From a virus, in IMG/VR virus record IMGVR_UViG_3300048904_000313, positions 1 to 64,000 of that record: 64,000 nucleotides of DNA; one strand, 5' to 3'. Shown here one piece after another: positions 24,496 through 40,544 of this stretch. Positions within the stretch are counted from its first letter, which is position 1. Each line of letters begins with the position of its first letter. Both the position numbers and the translations under genes were made by a program. Under the pieces are notes generated by a model. That model did no database searches and was not told the DNA's origin. It saw nothing but the letters and a program-made list of their open reading frames with translations.

Positions 24496-25461
24496 ATGGC
24501 ACTCATTCTGCTTGAGGGTGTCGACGGCGGTGGCAAGTCCACGCTGGCCGACCGTATCGAGGAGACGTTCAAGTTCCTCACCGAGGACGACCCCAACCCG
24601 CCCCAGGTCGTCCGGATTCACAAGGGCAAGCCCACCCCCAACCTGGACGCGTTCCAGGAGTACGAGCTTCCCCTGGAGCGGTTCGACCTCCGCGACCTGA
24701 TCCACTCAGCGCGAGACCTCGTCATCATGGACCGCTGGCACGCTGGCGAGATCCCCTACGGCACGATCTACCGTGGCTCCAGCCGCCTGGACCAGGCCGG
24801 CCTCCTGCACGTGGAGCTCGTCCTCAGCGCGGTGGGCGCGGTGAAGGTGCTCGCTCAACCCGACGAGGTGGACCTCGTCAAGTTCCGTCTCAAGGCGCGG
24901 GGCGAGGACTTCCTGCAGCCTGAGCACGTGGACCGTGTCTGGCAGTGGTACGAGTCCCTGAAGAAGCTGTACGGCTACGTCCGCGCCAGTGACACCGCCC
25001 CGTCTGAGCTGATCCAGCTCGCCAGGGAGCGAGCCCTGGACTCTCATCGCACGGTGCCGCAGTCCTGGCCAGGGTACGTGGGCAGTCAGTTCCCGCGTCT
25101 TCTCCTGGTGGGAGACCAGCGGAACGACGGCCCCCGCGCTCGCCATGAGTTCGTCCGCGCCTTCACGCCGTGTCTCGGTGGCAGCTCCGCGGTCTACCTC
25201 CTCAACACGCTCAACCTGGCGGACATCCGTCGCGAGGTGGGCATCGTCAACGCTCACGAGCCGGGTGTGGATCTCACGCTGATCGACAAGATCGAGCCGC
25301 GGCCGGCCGTCGTGGCGCTTGGTCGCCTCGCGTCGAAGACGCTGACCGACGCCGGCGTGGAGCACGAGGCAGTGCCGCATCCTCAGTGGACGCGTCGCTT
25401 CCGCAACCAGAAGATGGGCTGGTATGCCCAGGAGATCAAGGAGGCCGCCGGATGGAAGTGA
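24496..25461 (+). CDS. dNMP (thymidylate-like) kinase fused to a UDG-like C-terminal domain
   Basis: 321 residues, ATG at 24496 with AAGGGAAGAG upstream. The N-terminal 175 residues are a P-loop kinase: GVDGGGKST (8-16), then DRWHAGEIPYG like the DR[SY] motif of thymidylate kinases. The C-terminal 130 residues have LLLVGDQRN ... NTLN ... ALGRLA ... VPHPQWTRRF, which resembles the uracil-DNA-glycosylase-like fold but lacks convincing catalytic residues. Family members phosphorylate dTMP; with the neighbouring dCMP-modifying enzyme it may act on a modified dCMP, like T4 gp1 (inference). Confidence 0.8.
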   Translation: MALILLEGVDGGGKSTLADRIEETFKFLTEDDPNPPQVVRIHKGKPTPNLDAFQEYELPLERFDLRDLIHSARDLVIMDRWHAGEIPYGTIYRGSSRLDQAGLLHVELVLSAVGAVKVLAQPDEVDLVKFRLKARGEDFLQPEHVDRVWQWYESLKKLYGYVRASDTAPSELIQLARERALDSHRTVPQSWPGYVGSQFPRLLLVGDQRNDGPRARHEFVRAFTPCLGGSSAVYLLNTLNLADIRREVGIVNAHEPGVDLTLIDKIEPRPAVVALGRLASKTLTDAGVEHEAVPHPQWTRRFRNQKMGWYAQEIKEAAGWK

Positions 25462-26387
25462 TCGCCAAGACCGGCTCTGAGGCGTACGTGGAGCTGATGC
25501 AGGCTGTCCTCAACGAGGGTGAGCCGACGTCTCCACGTGGCCAGCTGACGTTTGAGCTGCTGAACGTCACCGTCCAGGTGGAGGACCTCGAGGAGGCGCA
25601 CGTCCTCAACACGGCGAGGAAAGTCAACACCAAGATCCTCGCCACCGAGTACATGCACCTGCTCGGCGGCCTGAGCTCCCTTGAGCAGCTCGACCTCGCG
25701 TCCGGTGGGCGGTTCTCCCAGTTCGCGAACGGCGGCCGTCTCCTGGGCGCCTACGGCCCTCGAATCAGGCGTCAGCTGCCCAGGGTCGTTGAGCTTCTGA
25801 GCCGCGACCCCGACACCCGGCAGGCGGTCCTCTCCATCTGGACCGGCCGGGAGCACGAGGTCGACTCCAGGGACGTGCCCTGCACCCTGACCGTGCAGTT
25901 CCTCCTTCGCGACAACCAGCTTCACGTCCGCGTCTCCATGCGCTCTAATGATGTGGTGCTCGGCATTCCCTACGACTGGTGGATGTTCAGCCGGCTAGGC
26001 ATGTCGGTGGCGTCGGCCCTGGGCGTGGAGACCGGCTCGTACACGCACACCGTTGGCTCCATGCACCTGTACGACCGCGACCTCGGCATCGCCAACGACG
26101 TGGAAGACATCGGCTTCCTCGCCAAGCCTCGCCTGGCGGTTCCCCCGGCTCTCACCTACGTCGGTGACCGGGAGGACAAGGTCTTCCGAATGATCAAGCT
26201 GATGCAGGTGGCGGAGGACATCTGTCTCGACGACCCGTCGCACTGGGGCGCCGACTACCTCGGCATGGACTGGTACCACGGTCACGTGCCGCGGATCACC
26301 GACGTCAAGCAGTGTGTCAGCTGCCACTGCGTGGTCAAGACCGCTGAGATGTCGGAGCACCCACAGTTCTGCAAGGCCTGCAACTGA
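25452..26387 (+). CDS. Thymidylate-synthase family enzyme, predicted dCMP-specific (hydroxymethylase or methylase)
   Basis: 311 residues, ATG at 25452, overlapping the kinase by 10 nt. The catalytic Cys is C144 (DVPCT). R164-S and D167 match the phosphate/base-binding RSxD of thymidylate synthase; H205 and Y207 (MHLY) match the ribose-binding pair. The residue equivalent to E. coli TS Asn177 is Asp175 (GIPYD). That is the change known to switch preference from dUMP to dCMP, as in T4 dCMP hydroxymethylase. A C-terminal CxxC...CxxC ribbon (about 287-310) is an unusual addition. The product could be hydroxymethyl-dCMP or methyl-dCMP. Confidence 0.82.
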   Translation: MEVIAKTGSEAYVELMQAVLNEGEPTSPRGQLTFELLNVTVQVEDLEEAHVLNTARKVNTKILATEYMHLLGGLSSLEQLDLASGGRFSQFANGGRLLGAYGPRIRRQLPRVVELLSRDPDTRQAVLSIWTGREHEVDSRDVPCTLTVQFLLRDNQLHVRVSMRSNDVVLGIPYDWWMFSRLGMSVASALGVETGSYTHTVGSMHLYDRDLGIANDVEDIGFLAKPRLAVPPALTYVGDREDKVFRMIKLMQVAEDICLDDPSHWGADYLGMDWYHGHVPRITDVKQCVSCHCVVKTAEMSEHPQFCKACN

Positions 26388-26923
26388 TGACGTCGTGGCT
26401 GCAGCGAGAGCTGCTGCAACGCTATGACGGGAGGCAGATCTCGTGGGACGAGCTGTGGCTCAACGCCGCCTGCATGCTCGCCATGCGAAGTCGGTGTTCG
26501 CGCGACCGCGTTGGCGCCGTCATGGTGACCGACGACGATCGGGTCATCTCCGCCGGCTACAACGGCGCGCCGCCTACGTTCGCTGGTGACAAGAAGGGAC
26601 CGTGTGCGGAGTGGTGTCCCCGCGCCATGCACACGCCTCTCGGCGAGCCTGGTAACCCCGGTTATCAGGACTGTCACGCCACGCACGCGGAGATGAACTG
26701 TCTCAAGCGAGCCCCCGCGGTCGAGGCCACGATGACCACGCGGCTGTACGTCAGTCGCATGCCATGCTATCCCTGCGCCAAGGAGATCGGCTCCACGTAT
26801 GCGACGCACAACCTGCGTCAGCTCATCGTGCCGGTGAGCCATGAGGTCAACGTGCAGCACGGTGACGTCAGCCGGTCGGCGTCGTTCCTGGCTCAGTGTG
26901 GGATCAAGGTTCGCTTCGTCTAG
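26387..26923 (+). CDS. dCMP deaminase
   Basis: 178 residues, ATG at 26387, overlapping the preceding stop. Zinc motif H100-A-E and P-C127-Y-P-C130 is that of cytidine/deoxycytidylate deaminases, with Glu102 as proton shuttle. It converts dCMP to dUMP, feeding thymidylate and diverting dCMP from the host pool. T-even phages carry the same activity next to dCMP hydroxymethylase. Confidence 0.92.
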   Translation: MTSWLQRELLQRYDGRQISWDELWLNAACMLAMRSRCSRDRVGAVMVTDDDRVISAGYNGAPPTFAGDKKGPCAEWCPRAMHTPLGEPGNPGYQDCHATHAEMNCLKRAPAVEATMTTRLYVSRMPCYPCAKEIGSTYATHNLRQLIVPVSHEVNVQHGDVSRSASFLAQCGIKVRFV

Positions 26924-26937
26924 CCAGGCTGACCTGG

Positions 26938-26998
26938 TATAGTTGACCCCAGACGGCAGCCCGTTGCGATTTCCGAGGTGGCGGCTGGGCTGCCGTCT
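26938..26998 (+). promoter_or_regulatory. TATAGT promoter followed by a 12-bp leader hairpin of the DNA polymerase mRNA
   Basis: An extended TGG-TATAGT (26938-26943) is followed about 8 nt later by perfect arms AGACGGCAGCCC (26951-26962) and complement (26987-26998) around a 24-nt loop. The transcript would begin with the hairpin. It could stabilise, attenuate or regulate the polymerase message; no U tract follows. Confidence 0.55.
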
Positions 26999-27027
26999 AA
27001 CTAGGAACGAGCGAGAGACGTGGTACG

Positions 27028-28806
27028 TTGACAGACTCCCCGCTTTCCAACGTCGAGCTGCACCTGGTGCAGAGCATCGACGACCTGATGGACATGAAGC
27101 GCTGGGCAGGCGAGCGCCGCGAGACCCCCATGGGAGCGGACACCGAGTCGGGTGACCTTTCGCCGTGGCACAGCAACCTTCGCACCATCCAGCTTGGCGA
27201 CAAGCATCACGGCTGGTGCGTCCCGTGGGACCAGTGGGGCGGCGGTGCCCTCGAGATCCTCCAGAACTACGAGGGCTCGTTCACGTGGCACAACCTCCCC
27301 CACGACGCCAAGTTCATGAAGGTCCACGCGGGCTACGACATCCCGTGGCACCGCACGGATGACACGCTCATCGGGGCGCGGATCCAGGACCCAGGGCGGC
27401 CCGCGGGACTGAAGCCGCTGGTCAGCAAGCTCGTCGACAAGACGGCATTGGCCGGCCAGAAGGCCCTCGATGACGGCATGAAGGCGCAGAAGTGGACGTG
27501 GGCCACGGTCCCGTTGAGCTTCGCGCCGTACTGGATCTACGCTGCGATGGACCCGGTACTCAACTGCCACCTCTGGGAGAAAATAATCCCGGACGTGCAA
27601 AGTCGGTTCGGCGCGGTCTACGACCTCGAGATGGCGATCGTCCGCATCGCTACCAAGATGATGCTCAAGGGCGCGCAGCTCGACCCCGTCTACATCGAGA
27701 CGGAGCGGCAGAAGCTCCAGCAGTTCAGCACCGAGGCCAGGCTGTGGCTGAAGGTCACGTACGGCATCACCAGTCCGTTGTCGGCCGGCCAGATCAGTCG
27801 CGCTCTCACACAGCTTGGCGTGGAGATCAGCGTCTTCACCGACGCCGGTGCGCCGAAGATGGACAAGGACACGCTGGAGTTCTACCAGAAGACCTCGTTC
27901 AACCCCGCCGTCCAGGAGCTCTGCCGCTACGTCCTTGCCGTCCGTCACGCGGACAAGCTGCGAGGCACGTACCTCGACAACTTCATGTCCATGGCGGACT
28001 CCAACGGGATCATCCACGCCAGCATCAACACGCTGGCGGCCAGGACAAGTCGGATGTCCATGTCCGACCCGAACTTCCAGAACCTGCCTCGCGACGACAA
28101 GATGATCCGTGGATCGGTCGTCCCACGGGAGGGCAACGTTCTCGTCACGTGTGACCTGGACCAGGTGGAGGCGCGCTTCGGCGCTCACTTCAGCGAGGAC
28201 CCCGGTCTCGTGGAGGCCTTCAGCATCGCCGACAACGGCGGCACGGACTTCTTCTGCACCGTGGCCAGTGGCATCTACGCCGATGAGATCACGAACAAGA
28301 AGGACCCGCGTCGCCAGCCGACGAAGAACGTCTTCTATGGCTCGCTGTATGGAGCTGGCGCAAAGAAGATGGCGGAGACGGCCGGCATCCCGTTCGAGCA
28401 GATGGACCCGGTCAAGCGCGCGTTCGACTCGACCTACCCTGGTCTCAAGGCGGCGCTGGATCGCGTCTACCGCGAGGCGATGGAGCGGGAGAAGCCGTAC
28501 ATCGTCACCCCGTTCGGCCGTCACATCCCTCTGGACCGCGACCGCGCGTACACCCAGGGTCTCAACAGCCTCATCCAGGGGCATGCCGCGGAGTACTTCA
28601 AGGTCAGCCTGACCCGCATGGAAGCGGCGGACCTCGACCAGTTCCTCCTCATCCCGGTGCACGACGAGGTCGTGGCTGACGTGCCGGAGGACATGGCGGA
28701 AGAGGTGGCTCGCGCCATCGCGGAGTGCATGTCGGACGCGGACACCTATCGTGTCAAGATCAGCGCCGGCGCGGACATCCTCAAGGAGAGGTGGCAGAAG
28801 GTATGA
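27028..28806 (+). CDS. DNA polymerase, family A, with 3'-5' exonuclease domain
   Basis: 592 residues with TTG at 27028 as start; an upstream GTG reads into a stop, and the next ATG (27088) would remove the first strand of the exonuclease domain. The exonuclease motif I is D38-T-E40. Motif A is CDLDQVEARF (about 375-384), motif B is RRQPTKNVFYGSLYG (about 427-441), and motif C is PVHDEV (about 543-548). No 5' nuclease domain. It replicates the phage genome. If a modified dCTP is made, this enzyme must accept it. Confidence 0.94.
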   Translation: MTDSPLSNVELHLVQSIDDLMDMKRWAGERRETPMGADTESGDLSPWHSNLRTIQLGDKHHGWCVPWDQWGGGALEILQNYEGSFTWHNLPHDAKFMKVHAGYDIPWHRTDDTLIGARIQDPGRPAGLKPLVSKLVDKTALAGQKALDDGMKAQKWTWATVPLSFAPYWIYAAMDPVLNCHLWEKIIPDVQSRFGAVYDLEMAIVRIATKMMLKGAQLDPVYIETERQKLQQFSTEARLWLKVTYGITSPLSAGQISRALTQLGVEISVFTDAGAPKMDKDTLEFYQKTSFNPAVQELCRYVLAVRHADKLRGTYLDNFMSMADSNGIIHASINTLAARTSRMSMSDPNFQNLPRDDKMIRGSVVPREGNVLVTCDLDQVEARFGAHFSEDPGLVEAFSIADNGGTDFFCTVASGIYADEITNKKDPRRQPTKNVFYGSLYGAGAKKMAETAGIPFEQMDPVKRAFDSTYPGLKAALDRVYREAMEREKPYIVTPFGRHIPLDRDRAYTQGLNSLIQGHAAEYFKVSLTRMEAADLDQFLLIPVHDEVVADVPEDMAEEVARAIAECMSDADTYRVKISAGADILKERWQKV

Positions 28807-29300
28807 CCCGTCGCCTTGCCGCCGTCCCTGACCCACCGGACAAGCCCGGTGGCGACCCCAGCGTCGTGCTGTGGTTCGACCCCGGGCTCACCACGGGGTG
28901 GGCCTACCTGGAGATGGCCAGCTCGTTCAACAGTGGCCAGGCGCCGTTCGAGTCCATCGGTGAGCTGCTCACCGGCTGGGCGGAGATCCTCGGTCCCAAC
29001 CTCTGGGTGGGGTGGGAGCTGTACAACGTCACCCAGGGTGGCGGCAAGGCGGGCACGCCCAAGTACAGCCTGGAGACCATCGGCATGCTGAAGTGGATCT
29101 GTCACGCTCACGACGTGACGGTCCTGAAGGCCATGCCGTCCGCGTCGCGGAAGCTCGGCGACGAGATCAAGCTGAAGAAGCTGGACTGGCGGAAGCGTGG
29201 ACAGGTCCACGCAAACGACGCCGCCATGCACCTCTTGGCGTGGCATCTTCGAGAGAAGAAGCTGCCCCCTCACCTGCTCTCGCGGGTGCTCGCCGACTAG
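28803..29300 (+). CDS. RuvC-like Holliday-junction resolvase
   Basis: 165 residues, ATG at 28803 (ATGA overlap with the polymerase). RNase H-fold acidic residues are seen in FDPGLTTGWA (strand 1 Asp), WELYNV (Glu) and HANDAAMHLLAW (Asp near the end), the phage RuvC-like pattern. Likely resolves branched replication intermediates before packaging. Confidence 0.82.
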   Translation: MTRRLAAVPDPPDKPGGDPSVVLWFDPGLTTGWAYLEMASSFNSGQAPFESIGELLTGWAEILGPNLWVGWELYNVTQGGGKAGTPKYSLETIGMLKWICHAHDVTVLKAMPSASRKLGDEIKLKKLDWRKRGQVHANDAAMHLLAWHLREKKLPPHLLSRVLAD

Positions 29301-29302
29301 TG

Positions 29303-29319
29303 GTCTCCACTGCGGAGAC
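29303..29319 (+). terminator. Short hairpin after the resolvase gene
   Basis: GTCTCC/GGAGAC with a 5-nt loop, just after the stop and before the next promoter. Weak as a terminator. Confidence 0.4.
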
Positions 29320-29330
29320 AAGATCAACTG

Positions 29331-29359
29331 TTTACATCCGAGCTTACGCCTGGTAGACT
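29331..29359 (+). promoter_or_regulatory. Rightward promoter TTTACA-N17-TAGACT
   Basis: TTTACA (29331-29336), 17 bp, TAGACT (29354-29359) with TGG before the -10. Drives the SNF2/recombination operon. Confidence 0.66.
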
Positions 29360-29390
29360 GGTTACAGCAGATACGGAAGGGACAACGGAA

Positions 29391-29579
29391 GTGAACGTGA
29401 TCTCCGACGCCCTCGTAGCCAAGCGCAAGGGTTGTCCCTCCTGTGGAGCTCGACCCAACGTCGCCTGCAGTGAGATCGGACGGCAGTACGTGCCCCTCGC
29501 CGAGACCCATCTGGCTCGCCTCGCTCTCGTCAGTGAGGCGTATCAGGGAGAGGACCCACGCGTCAATGCCGAAAGCTGA
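29391..29579 (+). CDS. Small zinc-finger protein
   Basis: 62 residues, GTG at 29391. GCPSCGARPNVACSE followed by a downstream His matches a common actinobacterial/phage zinc finger. It overlaps the SNF2 gene by 14 nt and may be its partner. Confidence 0.72.
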   Translation: MNVISDALVAKRKGCPSCGARPNVACSEIGRQYVPLAETHLARLALVSEAYQGEDPRVNAES

Positions 29580-31479
29580 CCTCTTCACGCACGAGAACAG
29601 CAGCGTCATCAGCATCGCTACCACCTACCAGGACCGTCATCTCATGACGGAGCTGCCGGGTGGCCGCTTCAACCGTCAGCTCCAGGGCTGGCTGGCCCCG
29701 CTCAGCTGGGCCACCTGCGTGACCCTGCGCGGCCTCTTCGGGGACCGCCTTGAGATCGGGGAGGACCTTCAGGCGTGGGCGTGGGAGACCCGCAACTCGC
29801 GGATCGAGCCCGCCTACCGCATCCGGAACCTGCTCGAGCTGCCACCTGACATGCCGTTCCCCGAGCTCGACGAGGTCGAGGAGGGCCGGCCACTCAAGCT
29901 CTTTCCGTACCAGCGCGTCGATGTGAAGTTCCTGCTCCTCAACGAGCGGGCGCTCCTCGCCAACGAGCCGGGCCTCGGCAAGACGGGCGTGCTGATCCGC
30001 TTCCTCCAGGTGCTCAAGCACCTCGGTCGGGAGCCGTTCCCCGCGGTGGTGATCTGCCCGAACAGCCTCAAGTTCGCGGTGTGGGAGGGAGAGTTCGCGG
30101 CGTGGGCACCGGAGATCAACGTCCAGGTGGTGGACGGCTCCGCCGGCAAGCGACGGAAGCAGTTGGCCAACCAGGCCGACGTGTACGTGATCAACTGGGA
30201 CAGCGTCCGTCTTCACTCGCGGATGGCGGCCTATGGCTCCATCAACCTGTCAGACAACGACAGGCTGCCGAAGGAGCTCAACGAGCTCAACCCGCGCGTC
30301 GTGCTCATGGACGAGGCGCATCGCCTGAAGTCTCCGCAGACGGCGTGGACCAGGGCGGCGTGGGCAGTGGCTCACCAGGCTCGCTACCGAGTGGCGGCGA
30401 CCGGCACTCCGGTGACCGATCACGTGGGTGACTGGTGGTCTCTCGGCCACGCGCTCGAGCCAACGTGGCTGCCGGCCAAGACGAAGTTCATGGACCGGTA
30501 CGCTCAGGTGTCACTGAACTTCTTCGGTGGCGCGGAAGTGGTGGGGATCAACCCCAACACGAAGGACGAGCTCTTCTCCATCATCGATCCTCTCACCCGT
30601 CGCGTTCCCAAGAAGCTCGCGCTGCCACAGCTGCCACCCAAGCTGCCGCCGCAGATCCGGCACACCCCGATGGCGACGAAGCAGCAGAAGGCCTACGACC
30701 AGATGCGAGAGCAGATGCTCGCCATGCTGGACGGCGGACTTCTCGTGGCAGGTGACGACCGCGTCAAGTTCCTCAGGCTGATGCAGTTTGCCGCCGCCTC
30801 CGCGGAGCTCGTGACCGTCACCAAGCGAGTGCCGGTGAGGACGGAGCGGTTCGTGGAGGACCTCGATCCGCGTCTCACGCTCGACGACCTTTACGACGAC
30901 GATGATGACTTTGTCCACCCACTGGAGGGCAAGACCGTCACCGACGTGACGTACGAGGAACGAGAGGTGACTCAGGTAAGGCTGACGAGTCCCTCCGCCA
31001 AGGTGGACGACCTCGTGGACCTGCTGGAGGAGATGGGAGAGGCACCCCTCGTGGTAGCCGCGGTCTCCCGTCAGCTCATCGAACTGGCCGGCAAGAAGCT
31101 GGAGCAGCTGAAGATCCCCCACGGCTACATCACGGGGGCTCAGACTCCCGCGGAACGCCGAGTGGCGATGAACTCCTTCCAGGCTGGCAACATCCGAGTG
31201 ATCCTTCTCACTCTCGGCGCCGGGGCGGAGGGCATCACCCTCACCCGCGCCGACACCATGTTGTTCATGCAGGAGGACTTCAGCGAGGTCACGAACCAGC
31301 AGGCTCAGGATCGAGTCTACCGCATCGGCTCGGAGATCCACGCCAGCATCCGCATCATCAAGCAGATCACGCCGGGAAGCGTGGAGGAGCGGAAGCTCGA
31401 GCTGCTGGAGGGCAAGCGCATTCGCATGGAGGAGATCCTGCGGGACGAGGACTCGATCCGATACCTCCTGGGAGGGTGA
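29566..31479 (+). CDS. SNF2-family helicase/ATPase
   Basis: 637 residues, ATG at 29566. Walker A is NEPGLGKT, motif Ia is VICPNSL, motif II is LMDEAHRLKS, motif III is AATGTPV, and the C-terminal lobe has LLTLGAGAEGITLT and QAQDRVYRIGS. An acidic insertion (LYDDDDDF) separates the lobes. Such phage proteins translocate on DNA and remodel forks or recombination intermediates. It is followed directly by a Cas4-like nuclease, Sak4 and SSB-like genes. Confidence 0.92.
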   Translation: MPKADLFTHENSSVISIATTYQDRHLMTELPGGRFNRQLQGWLAPLSWATCVTLRGLFGDRLEIGEDLQAWAWETRNSRIEPAYRIRNLLELPPDMPFPELDEVEEGRPLKLFPYQRVDVKFLLLNERALLANEPGLGKTGVLIRFLQVLKHLGREPFPAVVICPNSLKFAVWEGEFAAWAPEINVQVVDGSAGKRRKQLANQADVYVINWDSVRLHSRMAAYGSINLSDNDRLPKELNELNPRVVLMDEAHRLKSPQTAWTRAAWAVAHQARYRVAATGTPVTDHVGDWWSLGHALEPTWLPAKTKFMDRYAQVSLNFFGGAEVVGINPNTKDELFSIIDPLTRRVPKKLALPQLPPKLPPQIRHTPMATKQQKAYDQMREQMLAMLDGGLLVAGDDRVKFLRLMQFAAASAELVTVTKRVPVRTERFVEDLDPRLTLDDLYDDDDDFVHPLEGKTVTDVTYEEREVTQVRLTSPSAKVDDLVDLLEEMGEAPLVVAAVSRQLIELAGKKLEQLKIPHGYITGAQTPAERRVAMNSFQAGNIRVILLTLGAGAEGITLTRADTMLFMQEDFSEVTNQQAQDRVYRIGSEIHASIRIIKQITPGSVEERKLELLEGKRIRMEEILRDEDSIRYLLGG

Positions 31480-32451
31480 GTGGACGACGTACTGAAGCTC
31501 AGCAACAGCACCATCACCGCCTACAAACGGTGCGCCAGGCACTGGTACCTGGCGTACCACCTCGGCTACGGCAAGCGGCCAGACCGTGACTCCACGACTA
31601 CCGTCGCCACCCTCGGCACCAGGGTGCACTGCGCCCTGGAGGCCTACTACGGCTACGACATCGACCCTCTCGCCGCCCTGCGGGTGATCTACTACCTCGC
31701 CGTGAAGGAACGTCCCTTCGACGAGGCGGAGCTGGACAAGCAGCACCGCTACGCCAAGGCGATGGTGGAAGGCTTCCTGCAGTGGTCGGAAGAGGAGGGG
31801 ATCGACTCGGCGCTGGAGGTCATCGAGACCGAGCACCTCGTCAAGCGGCCACTCCTTCTCGACGACGGCGCCGTCGTCACCCTGATGGCGAAGCTCGACC
31901 AGAAGGTGCGGCGCAAGACCGACAACGCGGTGCTCTTCCGTGACTGGAAGACCGTGGGCAGCCTCACCAAGTCTCACCTGCTCATCGTCGACGAGCAGAT
32001 GAGGTTCTACTCCCTGCTCGAGGCCCTGAGTGCCAGCGAGACGGGCGAACGAGCGGACGGGGGACTGTACACCATGCTCCTCCGCTCGATGCGCACACCT
32101 AAAGCCAACGGCCCCTTCTTCCGGGAGGTCGAGGTCAGGTTCAACCAGCACGACCACGACTCCATGCTGAAGCGAACCAAGGCCGTGGTGACCGACATCC
32201 ACGTCACCGAGCAGAAGCTTCGCGCCGGCGCCGATCACCGTGCGGTGGCCTACCCGAGCCCTGACCCGAACGGGTACTGCGGCTGGTGGTGCCCGTTCAC
32301 CCTCATCTGTCCGATGATGGATGACGGCAGCCGGTGGGAGGACGCCTTGCAGGCGAACTTCGTCAAGCGTGACCCGTACGGGTACTATGGTACGGGTCTG
32401 ATCGACCAGGTGAGGGCTGCCCTCGCCCCTGGAAAGACCGAAGGGAAGTGA
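31480..32451 (+). CDS. Cas4/RecB-like PD-(D/E)XK exonuclease with Fe-S cysteines
   Basis: 323 residues, GTG at 31480 with no gap after the SNF2 stop. Cys18 in the N-terminal helix and CGWWCPFTLIC near the C-terminus give the four Cys of a Cas4/AddB-type iron-sulfur cluster. The nuclease core has FRDWKT (Asp, Lys). It probably resects DNA ends for the Sak4/SSB recombination pathway. No cas genes or CRISPR array are present. Confidence 0.85.
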   Translation: MDDVLKLSNSTITAYKRCARHWYLAYHLGYGKRPDRDSTTTVATLGTRVHCALEAYYGYDIDPLAALRVIYYLAVKERPFDEAELDKQHRYAKAMVEGFLQWSEEEGIDSALEVIETEHLVKRPLLLDDGAVVTLMAKLDQKVRRKTDNAVLFRDWKTVGSLTKSHLLIVDEQMRFYSLLEALSASETGERADGGLYTMLLRSMRTPKANGPFFREVEVRFNQHDHDSMLKRTKAVVTDIHVTEQKLRAGADHRAVAYPSPDPNGYCGWWCPFTLICPMMDDGSRWEDALQANFVKRDPYGYYGTGLIDQVRAALAPGKTEGK

Positions 32452-32455
32452 CAGA

Positions 32456-33181
32456 TTGACCGACCTCGGGATGTCCCTGCTCGTGCATGGACCCTCCAAA
32501 TCTGGCAAGTCCACCCTGGGTGACACCACCCCCGGACCGCGTCTCGTTCTCGACGCGGAGATGGGTTCCAGGTTCACCCCGTCGAAGAAGGTCGTCTGGG
32601 ACCCCACCCAGTACGCGCCACCGGAGCCCAGCGAAGACTGGGACACCGCGATCGTCTACGTCCGCGACTACAAGTCCGTGGCACGGGCCTACGAGTGGCT
32701 GAACAGCGGCAAGCACCCGTTCAACTCCGTGGTCCTGGACTCCATCTCGGAGATCCAGCAGCGTGCCATCGACGCTCTCGTCGGCGCGGACATCATGAAG
32801 ACCCAAGACTGGGGTACGATCCTCAGGCAGATCTCGGACCTCGTCCGCAAGTTCCGAGACCTGACCACCAACCCCATCAAGCCTCTCGACGCGGTCGTCC
32901 TCATCGCGATGACCAAGCAGCGAGACGATGGCAGCTGGTATCCGTACGTCCAGGGCTCCCTGGCTACGGTGCTGCCGTACCACGTCGACGTCTGTGCCTA
33001 CCTCCAGAACGTGACCCTGGAGGACGGGATCTCCACCGCTCGTCGCCTGTTCGTCGGCCCGATCAATGGGTACGTGACGGGTGAGCGAGTGGCGGGACGC
33101 CTCGGCACCTACCTCGACAACGCGAACGTCACGGACATGCTTGGCATGGTACGTGGCGATCTCGAGCCCAACAGCAACTGA
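32456..33181 (+). CDS. Sak4-like RecA-fold ATPase (single-strand annealing)
   Basis: 241 residues. TTG at 32456 is the only plausible start next to the preceding stop. Walker A is GPSKSGKST (12-20) and Walker B is FNSVVLDS. Length and position between a RecB-like nuclease and an SSB-like protein fit phage Sak4, a RecA-core annealing protein. Confidence 0.85.
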   Translation: MTDLGMSLLVHGPSKSGKSTLGDTTPGPRLVLDAEMGSRFTPSKKVVWDPTQYAPPEPSEDWDTAIVYVRDYKSVARAYEWLNSGKHPFNSVVLDSISEIQQRAIDALVGADIMKTQDWGTILRQISDLVRKFRDLTTNPIKPLDAVVLIAMTKQRDDGSWYPYVQGSLATVLPYHVDVCAYLQNVTLEDGISTARRLFVGPINGYVTGERVAGRLGTYLDNANVTDMLGMVRGDLEPNSN

Positions 33182-33201
33182 GAACGGAGCGGATTCGACA
33201 C

Positions 33202-33879
33202 ATGGCCAGCTTCTCTTGGAATGACCTTCAGCAGGCTGCTGACGACGCCGGGTTCGGCGTCATCCCCGCCGGTGACTACGAGTGCTCGGTGAAGACCGCG
33301 GAGCACAAGAAGACGGGCACCGGCAAGGACAAGATCGCCGTTCGCTTCGTCGTCACCACCGGCCCGTCTGAGGGCAAGGCGGTCTTCAACGACTTCGTGA
33401 TCAGCCCGGACAACGGCACCGCGCTCGGGTTCTTCTTCCGCCACATGAAGGCGCTGGGTCTCGGCCCGGACTACTTCGCCTCCAACCCCGACCTCGGCAA
33501 GGTCGCGGGTGACCTGGTCGGCCGCAGCTGTGTGGTCACCGTCGGCATCCGTCAGTGGAACGAGGAGGACCGCAACGAGGTCAAGGGCATCAAGGCCTCG
33601 GCTGGCGCGGCCGCTCCCATGACGGCAGCCAGCGCGGGCCCACAGCCGATGGCGGCTCAGCCGGCCACCCGGCCGCAGCCGATGGCTCACCCGCAGCCCA
33701 CCGCTCAGCCTCAGCCGACTGCCCAGCCGCAGCCGGTCTCCACGGAGAAGAAGGCGAAGAAGGAGGAGCCGAAGGACGAGGCGCCTGAGGCTCCCACCGC
33801 GGAGCCGCAGGACGCTCCGCCGGCGGCGGAGGCAGAGGCCGCCACCGACGCACCGGCGAAGCCCAAGCTGCCGTTCTGA
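33202..33879 (+). CDS. SSB-like protein (DUF669 type)
   Basis: 225 residues, ATG at 33202. The N-terminal 130 residues form an OB-like domain of the DUF669 type found beside Sak4. A long Gln/Pro/Ala repeat linker follows, then an acidic tail ending in KLPF, similar to the SSB tip that recruits partners. Binds single-stranded phage DNA. Confidence 0.82.
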   Translation: MASFSWNDLQQAADDAGFGVIPAGDYECSVKTAEHKKTGTGKDKIAVRFVVTTGPSEGKAVFNDFVISPDNGTALGFFFRHMKALGLGPDYFASNPDLGKVAGDLVGRSCVVTVGIRQWNEEDRNEVKGIKASAGAAAPMTAASAGPQPMAAQPATRPQPMAHPQPTAQPQPTAQPQPVSTEKKAKKEEPKDEAPEAPTAEPQDAPPAAEAEAATDAPAKPKLPF

Positions 33880-34625
33880 TGGACGAGGCTCAGCCGATCC
33901 GACGCGGCGCTGCCAGGGAGGAGCGCCGCTTCGATCAGACGCAGCTCCGCGCCACGAAGTACGGGGAGCGGGTTCACCGCGACTATGCCGCTCACTTCTT
34001 CAAGTGGGGGTTCGCCACCAGGCACATCGGTCCCGAGGACCGCGTCCTGGAGGTCGGCTGTGGCAGTGAGCTTCCCCTCGTCAACGTGTTGCGGATGGGT
34101 GGCAGGTACAACCCCGCCAGCTACGTGGGTGCTGACCTCAACAAGGTCAGCGTCTACCGGCCGGAGTGGGCGACGATCCACGATCACTTCAACTTCGTGG
34201 ACCGGTACCTGGAGCTCGCCACTGAGGACGCGTACACCGTGGGCGTGTGCATCGAGGCCATCGAGCACATGAACGCGGAGGACGGCCTCAAGCTGCTGGA
34301 GGGGTTCCGCACCCTCCTGACGGACGACGGCAAGCTCATCCTCTCCACGCCCGTGTTCAACGGGCGGGCGGCGAAGAACCACATCCACGAGTACACGATC
34401 CCCGAGCTTCAGGCGGCGATCGAGCACACGGGCTGGCAGGTCGAGGCGCGCTACGGCACCTTCGCCTCGTACCGGGACATCGTCAAGGTGGCGACACCAG
34501 AGCACCGCCAGGTATTGGACGGCATCCGCCAGCTGTACAGCGAGGAGGTCACGGCCTGCTTCCTCGCCCCGCTGTACCCCGACCACAGTCGGAACAACGT
34601 CTGGGTCCTAACACCCAGGGGTTGA
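33879..34625 (+). CDS. Class I SAM-dependent methyltransferase
   Basis: 248 residues, ATG at 33879, sharing 1 nt with the previous gene. Motif I is VLEVGCGSELP, an acidic residue ends strand 2 (GADLN), and CIEAIEHM plus DDGKLILSTP follow the UbiE/class I order. Substrate unknown. It stands at the head of the putative modification genes. Confidence 0.82.
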   Translation: MDEAQPIRRGAAREERRFDQTQLRATKYGERVHRDYAAHFFKWGFATRHIGPEDRVLEVGCGSELPLVNVLRMGGRYNPASYVGADLNKVSVYRPEWATIHDHFNFVDRYLELATEDAYTVGVCIEAIEHMNAEDGLKLLEGFRTLLTDDGKLILSTPVFNGRAAKNHIHEYTIPELQAAIEHTGWQVEARYGTFASYRDIVKVATPEHRQVLDGIRQLYSEEVTACFLAPLYPDHSRNNVWVLTPRG

Positions 34626-34666
34626 CAGGGTGTCGCCACCGTGCTAGAGTCTGAGCCGGTGGCGAC
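34622..34666 (+). promoter_or_regulatory. Consensus rightward promoter with large operator dyad
   Basis: TTGACA (34622-34627), 17 bp, TAGAGT (34645-34650). Perfect 9-bp arms GTCGCCACC (34632-34640) and complement (34658-34666) enclose the -10, so the promoter is probably repressible. It controls the pyrophosphatase-glycosyltransferase-mutase-methyltransferase genes. Confidence 0.7.
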
Positions 34667-34712
34667 GCCCTCACTGGAAGAGAAGCGTGAAGCGACCAAG
34701 AGGAGACCTGTA

Positions 34713-35189
34713 GTGGAGTTCAACCAGTGGATCGCCGAGCAGCGCGCGTATCAGCGCGAGACGTTCGGCGTCGACTACACCCTGATGGCCAACGACGTGG
34801 ACGCCCTCACGGCCTACGTCACGATGAACCTGAACGCGGCCTTCCTCGAGCTGGCGGAGACCCAGCAGGAGGTGCCGTGGAAGCCGTGGGCCGAGACGGA
34901 GGACCGCGCCAAGGTGTGGTCGACCGGCCGTGACAAGGTCGTCGGTGAGATCGTGGACGTGCTGATGTTCGTCGGCAACGTCCTCACCGCGGTCGACTGC
35001 TCCGACTCGGAGCTGGCCACCCGCTACGAGGCGAAGATGGCGGTCAACCGCCAGCGCCAGGCGGCGGGCTACGACAACACCAACAAGTGCGACGGCTGTG
35101 GCCGGGCGTTCGACGACCACGGCGTCAAGCTCGCCGGCGTGATGAACGGCAAGCCGCACTGCGAGAAGTGCTGGGAGGCGTTCGCGTGA
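34713..35189 (+). CDS. All-alpha NTP pyrophosphatase (MazG/dUTPase-2-like) with zinc ribbon
   Basis: 158 residues; GTG at 34713 is chosen because AGAGGAGA lies 5-6 nt upstream and earlier starts overlap the promoter. E46/E49 in FLELAETQQE and E79-x-x-D82 in GEIVDVL form the metal-binding ExxE...ExxD signature. The C-terminus adds CDGCG ... CEKC. Family members hydrolyse dUTP, dCTP or other NTPs. T4 gp56 of this fold removes dCTP so that only hydroxymethyl-dCTP enters DNA; that role would fit here (inference). Confidence 0.78.
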   Translation: MEFNQWIAEQRAYQRETFGVDYTLMANDVDALTAYVTMNLNAAFLELAETQQEVPWKPWAETEDRAKVWSTGRDKVVGEIVDVLMFVGNVLTAVDCSDSELATRYEAKMAVNRQRQAAGYDNTNKCDGCGRAFDDHGVKLAGVMNGKPHCEKCWEAFA

Positions 35190-36205
35190 AGCTCCTCATG
35201 ACGGGTACCACGAAGCAGCAGGTCGGGGGCGGCACCGCCCTCGGCTACGAGCCGGTGGCCGACCTCTTCGCTAAGGGCCTTCGCCTGGCCGGCCACGAGG
35301 TCGAGCACCGCAAGACCACCATCGGCGAGGACCTCGCCCCCTACGACGCGGTGCTGGTCGGTCTCGTGCCGTTCTTCTCCATCGCGTCCAACCAGCTCTA
35401 CCACGCGCTCGACGTCATCGAGCGCGCGGAGAAGAGCGGTCACCCGCTGCTCTTCTTCGTGGACGACTGGGCGTTCCCCCGCCTGGTGGCCAACCTCAAC
35501 ACTCACATCCGTCACCCCTGGCAGCTGACGAAGGAGTTCTTCAGCGGCAGGGCCAGCTACGACTGGGCGTGCTCCCGCAAGGAAGAGCTCCAGGTTCTCG
35601 TGGAGCGGATGCGCTATCAGCCGTGGGCACCCACCATCGTGCCGGCGTTCACCTGGGGTGACCATCACAAGCTGACGGGGGAGGTGGAGATGATGACGCA
35701 GCCTCACTACGTCGACGTCTCCTCTCTCGCCATGGAGTACCCGCTCACCTTCCCGCCAGAGCGGGAGCGACGCTGGGTGCTCGGCACGATCAGCGACCAG
35801 CGGAAGTGGATGGACTCCCTCGGCCTCGGCTGGGAGGTCAATCACCTCGGGACGCGGGCCTCAAAGGCCCCCGAGAAGATGCCTGAGAGCCAGCTCGTGC
35901 AGCTCTACGCGGAGTCCTGGGGAGTTCTCAGCCCGCCGTACAAGCGGATCCTCGGGACAGGCTGGTGGCGCAACCGCGCCGTCTACGCCGCGAGGGCCGG
36001 CGCGATCCTGCTCAGCGACCCCGGTGAGATGCCGCAGCTGGGTGAGGCGTACCAGCTCAAGCCCGCCGAGGTCGAGGCCATGACGGACACCGAGCTCTGC
36101 AGCCTGGCGGCGGCACAGCGGCAGGCTCTCTTCAGCTGTCAGCCGTCCACCGGCCAGGTAGCGGCTCAGCTCGACGCGATCGTGCAGGGAGTGGTCAACA
36201 AGTGA
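35186..36205 (+). CDS. Glycosyltransferase (GT-B-like)
   Basis: 339 residues, GTG at 35186 (GTGA overlap). An N-terminal Rossmann start (KLLMTGTTK ... GLRLAGHEVEHR) and a C-terminal domain with ARAGAILLSDPGEMPQLGEAY look like a two-domain GT-B enzyme; the donor-binding Asp/Glu region is in that C-terminal segment. Acceptor unknown. Its translational coupling to UDP-galactopyranose mutase suggests UDP-galactofuranose as donor, and its genomic context suggests modified DNA as a possible acceptor. Confidence 0.72.
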   Translation: MKLLMTGTTKQQVGGGTALGYEPVADLFAKGLRLAGHEVEHRKTTIGEDLAPYDAVLVGLVPFFSIASNQLYHALDVIERAEKSGHPLLFFVDDWAFPRLVANLNTHIRHPWQLTKEFFSGRASYDWACSRKEELQVLVERMRYQPWAPTIVPAFTWGDHHKLTGEVEMMTQPHYVDVSSLAMEYPLTFPPERERRWVLGTISDQRKWMDSLGLGWEVNHLGTRASKAPEKMPESQLVQLYAESWGVLSPPYKRILGTGWWRNRAVYAARAGAILLSDPGEMPQLGEAYQLKPAEVEAMTDTELCSLAAAQRQALFSCQPSTGQVAAQLDAIVQGVVNK

Positions 36206-37284
36206 AGTGCGTGGTGGTTGGCGCCGGCTTGGCCGGCGCCACCGCCGCTCGCAAGGTGAGCCTTCACCCCGACTGGGAGGTCGAGGTCTACGAGGCAGCA
36301 CCTGAGGTGGGCGGCAACCTGAGAGCCAGCTCCATTGCTGGCGTCCTGTACGAGCCCTTCGGGCCACACATCTTCCACACCAACAACCTCGTTGCCTGGG
36401 ACTGGATCACCAGCTACGCCAAGCTGGTGCCGTATCAGCACACGGTCAAGAGTCAACTGGCCAACGGCCGCATCCTCTCCTGGCCTCCCCAGGTGGAGGA
36501 GCTGAAGACGCTGCCGGAGTGGTCGAGGATCGCCGCGGAGCTCGACGCGCGGCCGGCTTCTCCCTCCGCGGCGAACTTCGAGAGCTACGCCATCGAGGTC
36601 ATGGGCGCCACGCTCTACGCCTGGTTCTGCGAGGAGTACACGCGCAAGCAGTGGGGGACCGACCCTCACCTGCTGAGCTCCAGGTTCGCACCGAAGCGGA
36701 TCGACCTTCGCACGGACGGCGATCGGCGACTCTTCCGCGATCAGGACCAGGGTTGGGTGGCGGGTGGCTTCCAGAACCTCGTCCACGCGCTGCTGCACAA
36801 CATCCCGGTCCACACTGGACGAGAGCTCACTCTCTCCACGCTGCCGGCGGCGGACGCCTACGTCATTACCGCGCCCCTGGACGACTTCCTCGGTGAGGAG
36901 CCCCTTCCCTGGCGCGGCGTCCGCAGTGAGGCCACCTACTACCCCGACCGCGTGGGTCGTTCGCTCCCCGCACCGGTGCTCAACCGGCCGGGCGCGGAGG
37001 TCCCGTGGACTCGGGAGGTGGAGACCAGGCAGATGGCGGGCCAGGACACACTGGGCACCGTCATCGTGAGGGAGTACCCTGGGGCCAGCACCAGGTACTA
37101 CCCGGTGGACGACGTCGACGGGGAGAACCGTGCCCGGTGGCGGGCGCTGCGAGACGAGCTCAAGATCCACCTGCCCAACGCCCACCTGGCCGGTCGCCTG
37201 GCCAACTACGTCTACATCGACATGGACCAGGCCATCGTCCAGGCTCTCAACGCCGCAGGACGGATCACGAGGGGAACAGAGTGA
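36202..37284 (+). CDS. glf: UDP-galactopyranose mutase
   Basis: 360 residues, GTG at 36202 (GTGA overlap). FAD-binding GAGLAGATAAR, the GGN turn, GPHIFHTN (matching the GPHIFHT of bacterial UGMs) and STRYYPVDD near the C-terminus are all as expected. It interconverts UDP-galactopyranose and UDP-galactofuranose using reduced FAD. Rare in phages. Flanked without gaps by a glycosyltransferase and a C5-methyltransferase homologue. Confidence 0.9.
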   Translation: MKCVVVGAGLAGATAARKVSLHPDWEVEVYEAAPEVGGNLRASSIAGVLYEPFGPHIFHTNNLVAWDWITSYAKLVPYQHTVKSQLANGRILSWPPQVEELKTLPEWSRIAAELDARPASPSAANFESYAIEVMGATLYAWFCEEYTRKQWGTDPHLLSSRFAPKRIDLRTDGDRRLFRDQDQGWVAGGFQNLVHALLHNIPVHTGRELTLSTLPAADAYVITAPLDDFLGEEPLPWRGVRSEATYYPDRVGRSLPAPVLNRPGAEVPWTREVETRQMAGQDTLGTVIVREYPGASTRYYPVDDVDGENRARWRALRDELKIHLPNAHLAGRLANYVYIDMDQAIVQALNAAGRITRGTE

Positions 37285-38543
37285 CCTACACGTTCATCGA
37301 CAACCAGGGCTTCGCCGGCGGCTTCGCCTGTGGCGCCACCCAGGCGGGCTTCCACCTGGTCGGCAAGCTGGAGAAGCCGGGTGGCTTCGGCGTCCCGCTG
37401 ATGGAGGCCAACCGCGTCTTCCTCGGCGACGACTGGGAGGCACAGGTCGGCGATCCCAGCAGCTGGAAGGCCGTCAAGGCCGACGTCATCGTTGCCACGC
37501 CACCCTGCAGCGGCTTCTCCTCCATGACAGCCGGCATCGCTGGCATGCACGGCATCGACGCGCCGATCAACCAGTGCATGAAGGACCTGATCGGCTACGC
37601 CATCAAGGTCAAGCCCACGGTCGTCTGCATGGAGTCGGTCGGCCAGGCGTACACCAAGGGTCTCGACCTGATGCGGCGGCTGCGTCAGACGCTCAGCGAC
37701 GAGACGGGGCTCACGTATCACGCCACGCACGTGATGCAGAACAACCTCTCCACGGGTGGCTGCACCAACCGCCGGCGGTACTTCCTCGTGTTGAGCCAGG
37801 TGCCCTTCGGCGTGGAACGCTACGACCTGAAGCGAGTCGCCACCGTGGGTGACGCGCTCGAGGACCTGCGCAACCTCGACATCACCTGGGACCCTCAGGC
37901 GTACGAGGACGAGCCGACCTGGTGGTCCGCGGAGCGTCGCTCCAAGACCGGCATGGTGGACGGCCACATGGACCCGCCCGACGGCCCGTACAAGCGTCGC
38001 ATCTACGACATGGCGCAGAGCCCCGACGCCGTGGAGTGGAAGGCGGGCGAGGGCGACACGGACATGCTCCGTCGCTGGTACGAGACGCACGGCTCGCTCC
38101 CCGACTCCTGGGACTACGTCTCCGCTGGCAAGGAGAAGAGCCGTACTGAACAGATGGTGGAGCGCGGCTTCAAGATGGGCGGCTTCTCCAAGCCGAAGCA
38201 CTGGCCGTGGGACGTCCCAGGCCGCGTGATCAACGGCTCCGGCCCGATCCAGGTGTGGCACCCCGACGGCCGCTTCTCCACGCACCGGGAGATCGCTCGC
38301 CTGATGGGCTTCCCCGACGACTGGGTGGTCGGCACTGCGAAGGACACCCGCGCCCTCACCTCCTACTGGGGCAAGGGCACGTCCGTCTCGCCGGCGAAGT
38401 GGCTGATGGACTGGGTGCGCAACAGCCTGGACGGCAACCCTGGTTCCTACGTAGGCGAGGAACTGGCGGCAGGTGACCGCTTCATCACGGTCGCCCCGGA
38501 CTGGAAGCCGGTCTGGGAGGCACAGACCGCCACGGCAGCCTGA
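37281..38543 (+). CDS. DNA C5-cytosine methyltransferase family protein
   Basis: 420 residues, GTG at 37281 (GTGA overlap). An N-terminal GGFACG segment replaces the usual motif I. Motif IV is TPPC76SGFSS with the catalytic Cys; motif VI reads MESV instead of ENV; motif VIII is NRRRYFLV. A long target-recognition region and motif IX/X (IARLMGFPDDW, SYWGKGTSVSP) follow. It may make 5-methylcytosine at a site, or provide a DNA-level cytosine modification used by the neighbouring glycosyltransferase. Confidence 0.85.
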   Translation: MTYTFIDNQGFAGGFACGATQAGFHLVGKLEKPGGFGVPLMEANRVFLGDDWEAQVGDPSSWKAVKADVIVATPPCSGFSSMTAGIAGMHGIDAPINQCMKDLIGYAIKVKPTVVCMESVGQAYTKGLDLMRRLRQTLSDETGLTYHATHVMQNNLSTGGCTNRRRYFLVLSQVPFGVERYDLKRVATVGDALEDLRNLDITWDPQAYEDEPTWWSAERRSKTGMVDGHMDPPDGPYKRRIYDMAQSPDAVEWKAGEGDTDMLRRWYETHGSLPDSWDYVSAGKEKSRTEQMVERGFKMGGFSKPKHWPWDVPGRVINGSGPIQVWHPDGRFSTHREIARLMGFPDDWVVGTAKDTRALTSYWGKGTSVSPAKWLMDWVRNSLDGNPGSYVGEELAAGDRFITVAPDWKPVWEAQTATAA

Positions 38544-38649: not shown

Positions 38650-38723
38650 CGGGACGTAGTTCAACTTGGTAGAGCACCTGGTTTGGGACCAGGATGTTGG
38701 GGGTTCAAATCCCTCCGTCCCGA
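38650..38723 (+). tRNA. tRNA-Pro (anticodon TGG)
   Basis: Acceptor CGGGACG pairs with CGTCCCG, giving the C1-G72 pair typical of bacterial tRNA-Pro. The anticodon stem CCTGG/CCAGG holds loop TTTGGGA, and the T-loop is TTCAAAT. CCA is not encoded. Confidence 0.93.
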
Positions 38724-38736
38724 CGTGAGGACTGGG

Positions 38737-38790
38737 CACGGGTAGAGCGTAAGACATGCGCGCTTACGGCTCCAGGGTAGAAACCCCGTG
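38737..38790 (+). ncRNA. Structured element of unknown type after tRNA-Pro
   Basis: Outer pair CACGGG/CCCGTG (38737-38742, 38785-38790) encloses a second stem of 9 bp with one bulge (38745-38753/38763-38772). It recalls part of a tRNA (GGTAGAGC-like segment) but cannot be folded as one. Could be a processing signal, leader structure or tRNA remnant. Confidence 0.35.
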
Positions 38791-38830
38791 GCATCTGACA
38801 ACTGCTTAGCAAGGAAGGGAAGGGAAGCGA

Positions 38831-39226
38831 GTGAGCAAGAACACGACCAACGCCGGCAGCGTCGGCAAGGCGATCGGCGCTGGCGTCCTCGGTCTCGCGG
38901 TCTTCGGCGGCGTCATCTTCGGCGGCTGGGAGGCGGGTTGGTGGTTCACCAACCAGAACGCGAACCGTGAGGGTCACGTCATCCGCAACAGCTACTCCAA
39001 CCAGCAGACGCTGCGGGACCAGATCACCAAGGGCCTCGGTGACGTGACGGACATGGACCGTCAGATCACTCAGGCGAAGGGCGACAACGCCACCGCGCTG
39101 ACTGCCCAGCGGCACGCCATCGCCAACCAGGTCTGCCAGGAGGCAGTGCAGGTAAGCGGTGATCCGCTGCCGTCCGATCAGGCCGACTGGGTGTCCCAGA
39201 ACTGCGTCATGGGGAGCGCGAAGTGA
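38831..39226 (+). CDS. Membrane-anchored small protein
   Basis: 131 residues, GTG at 38831 after GGAAGGGAAGGGAAGCGA. One Gly-rich hydrophobic segment (about 15-38) followed by an extended helical, Gln/Asn-rich outer domain with two Cys. Overlaps the lipoprotein gene by 4 nt. Confidence 0.72.
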   Translation: MSKNTTNAGSVGKAIGAGVLGLAVFGGVIFGGWEAGWWFTNQNANREGHVIRNSYSNQQTLRDQITKGLGDVTDMDRQITQAKGDNATALTAQRHAIANQVCQEAVQVSGDPLPSDQADWVSQNCVMGSAK

Positions 39227-39819
39227 AGAAGACGATCCAGGTCCGCACCAAGTACCTCGTCCTCGGGACCGCCATGGTCGGCGTTCTCACCCTGACGGCC
39301 GGTGCCTGCGACGATGGTGGCAGCAGCAGCGGTCAGGACAAGGAGAACAAGCAGCAGGCACAGTCCACGAACTCCCTGGTCACCAACCAGCCGATCCCGC
39401 ACTTCAACTACTCGCAGATCCGGCAGAACCTGAAGGAGATCGAGGCGGCGGAGGCCAACGGCGTCCAGACCACCACGTTCTTCTTCAACCAGGGCGTCCA
39501 GGACCCGATCGACTCCTGCCCGTCCATCGGCGCGCCGATCCCCACCACGGACCAGCTCTCCAACCCGCAGCAGACCACGGACGGCCACTACAACGGCAAC
39601 TACGGTCTCACCACGATCGGGCAGATGGACCCCACCGGCGTCTACACCGGTGACTCCAGCGGCACGTACGTGATGTGCGTCGGCGGCAACGGCAAGACCT
39701 ACGCCTCCTACTGGGAGGGCTACGTCAAGACCGTCTTCGCCAACGCCACCTGGGACAAGGCCACGCACAGCGTCAAGGTGCTGGGCGACCCGTCCTTCAA
39801 GTTCACCGGCAAGAAGTAG
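39223..39819 (+). CDS. Predicted lipoprotein
   Basis: 198 residues, GTG at 39223. Basic N-terminus, hydrophobic core, then LTAGAC-DDGGSSS: a Cys after a near-consensus lipobox and a Ser/Gly tether, typical of Gram-positive lipoproteins. The mature domain of about 165 residues has two more Cys and is beta-rich. Phage lipoproteins often block superinfection (established for several phages, inferred here). Confidence 0.75.
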   Translation: MKKTIQVRTKYLVLGTAMVGVLTLTAGACDDGGSSSGQDKENKQQAQSTNSLVTNQPIPHFNYSQIRQNLKEIEAAEANGVQTTTFFFNQGVQDPIDSCPSIGAPIPTTDQLSNPQQTTDGHYNGNYGLTTIGQMDPTGVYTGDSSGTYVMCVGGNGKTYASYWEGYVKTVFANATWDKATHSVKVLGDPSFKFTGKK

Positions 39820-39831
39820 GGGGACCGGGAC

Positions 39832-40233: not shown

Positions 40234-40245
40234 TCCACTTGCCGC

Positions 40246-40282
40246 GGGACCCTGGCCAGGTGCCAGGGTCCCGTGGTAGGGT
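40246..40282 (+). promoter_or_regulatory. Terminator hairpin fused to the tRNA-cluster promoter
   Basis: Perfect arms GGGACCCTGG/CCAGGGTCCC (40246-40255/40263-40272) terminate the upstream genes. TGGCCA (40253-40258), 18 bp and TGG-TAGGGT (40277-40282) form the promoter of the four-tRNA cluster. Confidence 0.6.
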
Positions 40283-40312
40283 ACAGGGGAGGATGGACAT
40301 CCATCACCTCGT

Positions 40313-40389: not shown

Positions 40390-40390
40390 A

Positions 40391-40466: not shown

Positions 40467-40467
40467 T

Positions 40468-40543: not shown

Positions 40544-40544
40544 T

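Follow-up and report, generated by a model that had tools for sequence, protein, structure and literature searches.

The 64,000-nucleotide window of virus DNA analyzed here (IMG/VR record IMGVR_UViG_3300048904_000313, positions 1 to 64,000 of a 107,550-base record) contains a module of eight genes that probably directs a cytosine hypermodification following the logic of coliphage T4 with a different sugar, galactofuranose (Galf), placed on 5-hydroxymethylcytosine (hmC) in the phage DNA. Central to it are a thymidylate synthase (TS) homologue, a glycosyltransferase (GT) and a UDP-galactopyranose mutase (UGM) homologue. A T4-like hmC route with glycosylation by Galf from a phage mutase had been proposed from the DNA alone (the original prediction), and is supported by the recurrence of GT-UGM pairs beside gene 42 or TET genes in other phages, by the fold of the GT, and by residue tests of the TS homologue. 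In sequence searches the polymerase and the module genes are nearest to those of actinophages, including Arthrobacter, Microbacterium, Micrococcus and Gordonia phages and the metagenomic DSL-LC01.

In the pathway that we infer, a dCTPase-like enzyme would hydrolyze deoxycytidine triphosphate (dCTP) to the monophosphate (dCMP), the TS homologue would hydroxymethylate dCMP at C5, and the kinase domain together with a host nucleoside diphosphate kinase would convert the product to hydroxymethyl-dCTP, which the phage polymerase would build into DNA; the dCMP deaminase would supply dTMP synthesis. The phage mutase would convert host UDP-galactose to UDP-galactofuranose, from which the GT would transfer Galf, after replication, to the hydroxymethyl group in DNA. 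By analogy with T4, the modification would presumably function in protection from nucleases.

Comparative data are the strongest evidence for this pathway. Single-sequence scans of IMG/VR with the GT or the TS homologue found no relatives, and GT-family loci were gathered from IMG/VR with narrower alignments, giving neighborhoods for 104 virus loci, which fall into 37 clusters at 80% identity. A UGM gene lies within 60 nucleotides of the GT gene in 68 of these loci (22 clusters), and the genes of 68 among the 69 nearest GT-UGM pairs abut or overlap, the overlap being exactly 4 nucleotides in 49. The retrieved DNA holds a TS-family gene at 77 of the 104 loci, and all 75 TS homologues that could be aligned have Asp at both diagnostic positions as well as the catalytic Cys. 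Actinophage contigs share the order kinase, hydroxymethylase, deaminase, PolA and, more distally, RecA-like, SSB-like, GT, UGM, second GT, dCTPase and C5-methyltransferase, with UGM variably present and the second GT optional. T4-like contigs have the order gp43, gp42, deaminase, uracil-DNA-glycosylase (UDG)-like, GT, UGM, epimerase and uvsX; here gp42 is 52% identical to that of T4, and the GT-UGM pair occupies the position of T4 beta-gt between gene 42 and uvsX. The epimerase that usually accompanies the pair in these contigs is closest to GalE (1e-69 in locus L177, 1e-18 in L093), so that one operon would encode the whole chain from UDP-glucose through UDP-galactose and UDP-galactofuranose to hmC-DNA.

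GT and UGM are also coupled to a second hmC-making enzyme. The complete phage C48C1 (Kyanoviridae) has no TS-family gene, and its GT and UGM genes directly follow a TET/JBP dioxygenase gene, the genes overlapping (L016 10493-13940). Four more contigs (L227, L228, L231 and L233), with no TS-family gene in the retrieved DNA, have operons of overlapping genes in the order TET, GT and UGM, with a GalE-like epimerase gene between TET and GT in some. Hydroxymethylase and TET are unrelated but both make hmC, and of all the observations their shared coupling to GT-UGM argues most strongly for hmC in DNA as the acceptor.

The GT itself matches no Pfam family above the cut-off and no NCBIfam family, and a search of its profile against the PDB by sequence returned no glycosyltransferase and nothing relevant. 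An AlphaFold model built with 54 related virus sequences has a mean predicted local distance difference test (pLDDT) of 94.9 and a predicted template modeling score (pTM) of 0.92, and comparison with DNA glycosyltransferases, which the original prediction had suggested as a check, places T4 DNA beta-glucosyltransferase first: in a Foldseek search of 350,542 PDB chains it takes ranks 1, 2, 3 and 5 (E-values 3e-8 for 1j39 to 7e-7, TM-score ~0.6, 10-12% identity). As modeled, the GT is thus a GT-B protein whose nearest known fold is that of a DNA hmC transferase; by sequence it falls outside the T4 beta-glucosyltransferase family and shares the GT-B fold only. No cellular relative was confirmed in one pattern scan of 84,980 bacteria and archaea (one genome per species). 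Taken with the gene coupling, this makes hmC in phage DNA very likely the acceptor of the GT.

A second, diverged paralogue of the GT adjoins the first in many actinophages (L002 20414-21430; L050 6947-7939; L009 9236-10246; L005 22493-23479; L143, L145-L149, L150-L151), which suggests addition of a second sugar or extension of the chain. In DSL-LC01 a tryptophan-halogenase-like gene stands beside another glycosyltransferase gene near the modification module (L002 26149-28793).

The UGM homologue scores 85 bits against PF03275 (cut-off 26.3), carries the flavin adenine dinucleotide (FAD)-binding Rossmann motif GAGLAG, and matches UGMs in the PDB at 2e-36 (Deinococcus radiodurans UGM). At nine of the ten positions compared, which belong to the active site of solved UGMs, the residue is kept (His85, His88, Tyr179, Trp184, Arg198, Arg305, Tyr335, Tyr370 and Asn/Asp372 in D. 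radiodurans numbering). Its product is most likely UDP-galactofuranose, and if the hydroxymethylase and the action of the GT on hmC are granted, there is a good to strong likelihood that the sugar is Galf. We infer its identity, as we do the linkage and the extent of cytosine replacement.

Several points weigh against Galf on hmC as the product. The virus is known only from a virus-contig record, the literature yielded no DNA chemistry for any phage with GT and UGM, and full replacement of cytosine would leave the C5-methyltransferase of the module without a substrate. The mutase falls below the NCBIfam equivalog cut-off (TIGR00031, 135.8 versus 303.75 bits), so that it is a diverged homologue whose name is held with care, and the tenth active-site position has Leu177 in place of D. 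radiodurans Tyr209, as in its UGM clade. Mutases of the UGM family can accept related sugars. A GT-family member of a Providencia phage (PSTRCR_127) sits inside an RB69-like arabinose cluster without UGM, so specificity for Galf does not extend to the whole GT family. Among the best 80 UGM loci of viruses only five have the GT, and 16 loci with both GT and UGM have neither hydroxymethylase nor TET in the retrieved DNA; these are mostly short, and some of the contigs encode the hydroxymethylase at another location.

The active-site Leu of the mutase and the Providencia cluster would fit glycosylation of hmC-DNA in the same manner with another furanose, with UDP-arabinopyranose, UDP-GalNAc or a deoxysugar nucleotide as the mutase substrate and, for example, arabinofuranose as the sugar that the GT adds. 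Phages RB69 and NP do have arabinosylated cytosine (PMC6024577, PMC13390438), but the epimerase that travels with the T4-like cassettes is nearest to GalE, which acts on UDP-glucose and UDP-galactose, the cassette has no sugar-building genes beyond UGM, as would be expected if the precursor were a common host compound such as UDP-galactose, and synthases of the 5-hydroxy type, the companions of arabinose, number 0 of 75 among the TS homologues. A furanose other than Galf is accordingly unlikely, if not negligible. A role of UGM and GT in modifying the host surface or a virion protein (superinfection exclusion, for instance), with the hmC genes as coincidental neighbors, is improbable. Published annotations have connected phage UGM with the galactofuranose of the cell wall (PMC6630229, PMC10611076) and most viral UGM loci lack hmC genes, but the association of the GT family with makers of hmC led us to rate this role low: the coupling recurs in unrelated phages through two unrelated enzymes, the GT-UGM pair takes the beta-gt slot, and the GT has its nearest fold in T4 beta-glucosyltransferase with no cellular relative confirmed.

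Hydroxymethylation of dCMP, the step on which Galf-hmC would depend, is read from the TS homologue. Alignment places Asp175, exactly as originally proposed, at the position of the dUMP-selecting Asn, equivalent to Asp179 of T4 gp42; Asn is found there in the dUMP hydroxymethylase of SPO1 and in four phage TSs. Together, Glu66, Tyr101, Asp141, Cys144 and Asp175 correspond to Glu60, Tyr96, Asp145, Cys148 and Asp179 of gp42, in which residue roles including those of the first four have been described, Asp145 being a polar residue at the site of hydroxymethylation (PMC6400193). The position of Asp145 is Leu in true TSs and Glu in RB69-type enzymes; these also have Phe at the Glu60 position, the Providencia, RL38J1 and Atu_ph04 enzymes share both residues, and the RB69-type enzymes produce 5-hydroxy-dCMP (PMC13390438). 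The best solved relative is the CMP 5-hydroxymethylase MilA (E=1e-25, with thymidylate synthases at 5e-18 or worse), and where the substitutions K133R and A176S shift MilA from CMP to dCMP (PMC6400193), the TS homologue carries Arg123 and Ser165. It also lacks the C-terminal tail typical of TS. Wherever a checked residue distinguishes dCMP hydroxymethylases from TS, from 5-hydroxy-dCMP synthases of the RB69 type or from CMP hydroxymethylases like MilA, it speaks for the dCMP enzyme, and on these sequence features it is, with high probability, a dCMP 5-hydroxymethylase. That it yields 5-methyl-dCMP, 5-hydroxy-dCMP or dTMP and leaves the DNA unhydroxymethylated is very improbable: TS-family enzymes of different phages make each of those products and this one is only ~37-43% identical to its nearest relatives, but Asp141, Asp175, Glu66 and Thr145 match the hydroxymethylase and not TS or the 5-hydroxy-dCMP synthase, and the missing tail and the relationship to MilA point the same way. 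An RB69-like 5-hydroxycytosine route was rejected for this enzyme on its residues Glu66 and Asp141.

All eight genes named in the original prediction are present with Pfam or PHROG matches and checked start and stop codons, and its account of their arrangement holds (Table 1). The dCMP deaminase gene stands beside the TS homologue and is followed by the DNA polymerase gene, and exact 4-nucleotide overlaps (35186-35189, 36202-36205 and 37281-37284) join the pyrophosphatase, GT, UGM and C5-methyltransferase genes; the predicted interval of about 8 kb before the pyrophosphatase is 8.25 kb counted from the TS homologue and 5.8 kb from where the polymerase gene ends. The kinase-like gene was recognized and its additional C-terminal domain was missed. 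The dCTPase-like assignment is consistent with orthologues in loci L050 and L119 that match the T4 dCTPase gp56 at 4e-5 and 2e-8. There is exactly one TS-family gene in the 107,550-base record. Across the same record PF01370 has no match, and in the absence of such an epimerase UDP-galactose must be supplied by the host; PF12851 likewise has no match, and a TET route in the source genome was rejected.

Table 1. Genes of the predicted cytosine hypermodification module and an adjacent methyltransferase gene (window coordinates).
Feature	Coordinates	Strand	Supporting match
dNMP (deoxynucleoside monophosphate)-kinase-like, with C-terminal uracil-DNA-glycosylase-like domain	24496-25461	+	PHROG 761 thymidylate kinase, E=1.6e-12, residues 1-154
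TS homologue, predicted deoxycytidylate 5-hydroxymethylase	25452-26387	+	PF00303, E=1.1e-25
dCMP deaminase	26387-26923	+	PF00383, 5e-13; PHROG 174, 1e-32
Family A DNA polymerase, replicative context of the module	27028-28806	+	PF00476, 2e-56
Class I S-adenosylmethionine-dependent methyltransferase, 5' of the cassette	33879-34625	+	PF13489, 6e-10
All-alpha dCTPase/dUTPase-like nucleoside triphosphate pyrophosphohydrolase	34641-35189	+	PF08761 (dUTPase_2), 1.3e-5; PHROG 18650 dUTPase, 6.5e-21
GT, uncharacterized virus family, predicted DNA furanosyltransferase	35186-36205	+	PHROG 14998, 2e-12
UGM homologue	36202-37284	+	PF03275, 6e-24
C5-cytosine methyltransferase homologue	37281-38543	+	PF00145, 2e-15

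The C-terminal half of the kinase gene (~25006-25458) is homologous to a separate protein of the T4-like cassettes (hhalign E=5e-9, probability 96%), and a model of this domain (pLDDT 86) matches UDGs, with 1l9g as the best (E=9e-6) and UdgX (8iij) also among them. In actinophages the domain forms one protein with the dNMP kinase, and T4-like cassettes encode it separately, in a gene that stands between those for dCMP deaminase and GT (L093 8581-8964 and ~20 T4-like contigs). It could be involved in checking the quality of modified nucleotides or bases.

The C5-methyltransferase homologues retain the Cys of the PC motif and the Glu of motif VI in 29 of 29 sequences, with motif VI reading ESV or ECV rather than ENV in the actinophage group. 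Actinophages retain the gene alongside the module, and six T4-like cassettes also have it (L200, L201, L202, L209, L213 and L221). It is built into hmC cassettes of two phage groups in which C5 of cytosine should already be occupied, and the original prediction assigned it no function; possible substrates are leftover cytosine, hmC and host DNA. BLAST of the related loci found no relative of the methyltransferase at 33879-34625, which could be a candidate modifier of the sugar or unrelated to the pathway. Five tRNA genes (Pro, Met, Asn, Trp and Gln) lie directly 3' of the cassette at 38650-40617.

Several cultured or named phages carry parts of the module. UGM adjoins GT in the Aeromonas T4-like phages 25, phiAS4 and 50AhydR13PP, and the annotation of phage 25 lists the products of both genes as hypothetical proteins that 44RR does not conserve. 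A 2010 list of gene-42 phages without recognized glucosyltransferase genes includes Aeromonas phages 25, 31 and 44RR (PMC2993671); the GT-UGM pair is a proposed answer to the question this raised, and its presence in phage 25 makes the question testable on a cultured phage. In Gordonia phages, GMA2 and GodonK among them, genes for GT, hydroxymethylase, dCTPase and C5-methyltransferase are present, and UGM was not found. The Gordonia cell wall contains galactofuranose made by the bacterium itself, and the host could therefore supply the donor to these phages. The module of Micrococcus phage Kurnik (L247 11543-16389) comprises C5-methyltransferase, MazG, hydroxymethylase, deaminase and polymerase, and the place of the GT is taken by two glycosyltransferases from a different family; the retrieved half holds no UGM. 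This arrangement points to an exchangeable sugar.

Rhizobium phage RL38J1 (L013/L035) and Agrobacterium phage Atu_ph04 (L020/L031) combine UGM with a TS-family enzyme of the RB69-like Phe/Glu type. RL38JI DNA reportedly contains glycosylated hydroxymethylcytosine, and judging by these residues it may be worthwhile to re-analyze its modified base as 5-hydroxycytosine derivatives. In Atu_ph04 the TS-family gene is annotated as a hydroxymethylase; its DNA is resistant to nine restriction enzymes, and the authors tied its UGM to the cell wall (PMC6630229).

The predicted system shares with T4 (gp56, gp42, gp1 and the alpha- and beta-glucosyltransferases) a dCTPase, the dCMP hydroxymethylase residues, a dNMP-kinase-like gene, a dCMP deaminase and a transferase of the GT-B fold, which in T4-like relatives stands at the beta-gt position. 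It differs in that its GT is no sequence relative of either T4 enzyme (no Pfam match, 12% identity), in the added mutase, which would make the donor UDP-galactofuranose rather than UDP-glucose, in the fusion of the kinase to a UDG-like domain, and in having a C5-methyltransferase homologue in the operon. With the pentose-cytosine systems of RB69, Mosigvirus and Thanatos (PMC6024577, PMC13390438, PMC12838424) it has in common a phage-made nucleotide sugar and a GT acting on cytosine modified by a TS-family enzyme, as well as the one GT-family relative in the Providencia cluster, but their synthases have Phe and Glu where the cassette enzyme, like T4, has Glu and Asp, and their sugar genes are an isomerase, a kinase and a nucleotidyltransferase for arabinose and not a mutase. 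The GT-UGM pair directly behind TET links it to TET/JBP hypermodification in C48C1 and the four IMG/VR contigs, whereas in the source genome, which has no TET, hmC would arise at the nucleotide level. From the bacterial Glf enzymes of cell wall and capsule the mutase retains PF03275, the FAD motif and most active-site residues; unlike them, it stands in a DNA-modification setting, and its diverged clade scores below the equivalog cut-off.

The original prediction knew of no described system with a mutase in this place, and we likewise found no open paper that links UGM with a hydroxymethylase or describes Galf-decorated cytosine DNA, although earlier mention elsewhere is possible. It seems reasonably likely that Galf-hmC is an undescribed base of many phages, made by a virus-specific GT family and a recruited UGM that form a portable unit, joined to dCMP hydroxymethylase in actinophages and T4-like phages and to TET in others, with a GalE-like epimerase where the precursor must be made. 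If so, it would be a new DNA decoration, a furanosyl hexose on cytosine, together with a DNA glycosyltransferase family, neither described in the papers that can be searched, and its enzymes would be usable for hmC labeling. Phage UGM, so far read as a cell-wall gene (PMC6630229, PMC10611076), would gain a different meaning where it accompanies this GT, and new modified bases of this kind bear on restriction, type IV defense and evasion of CRISPR.

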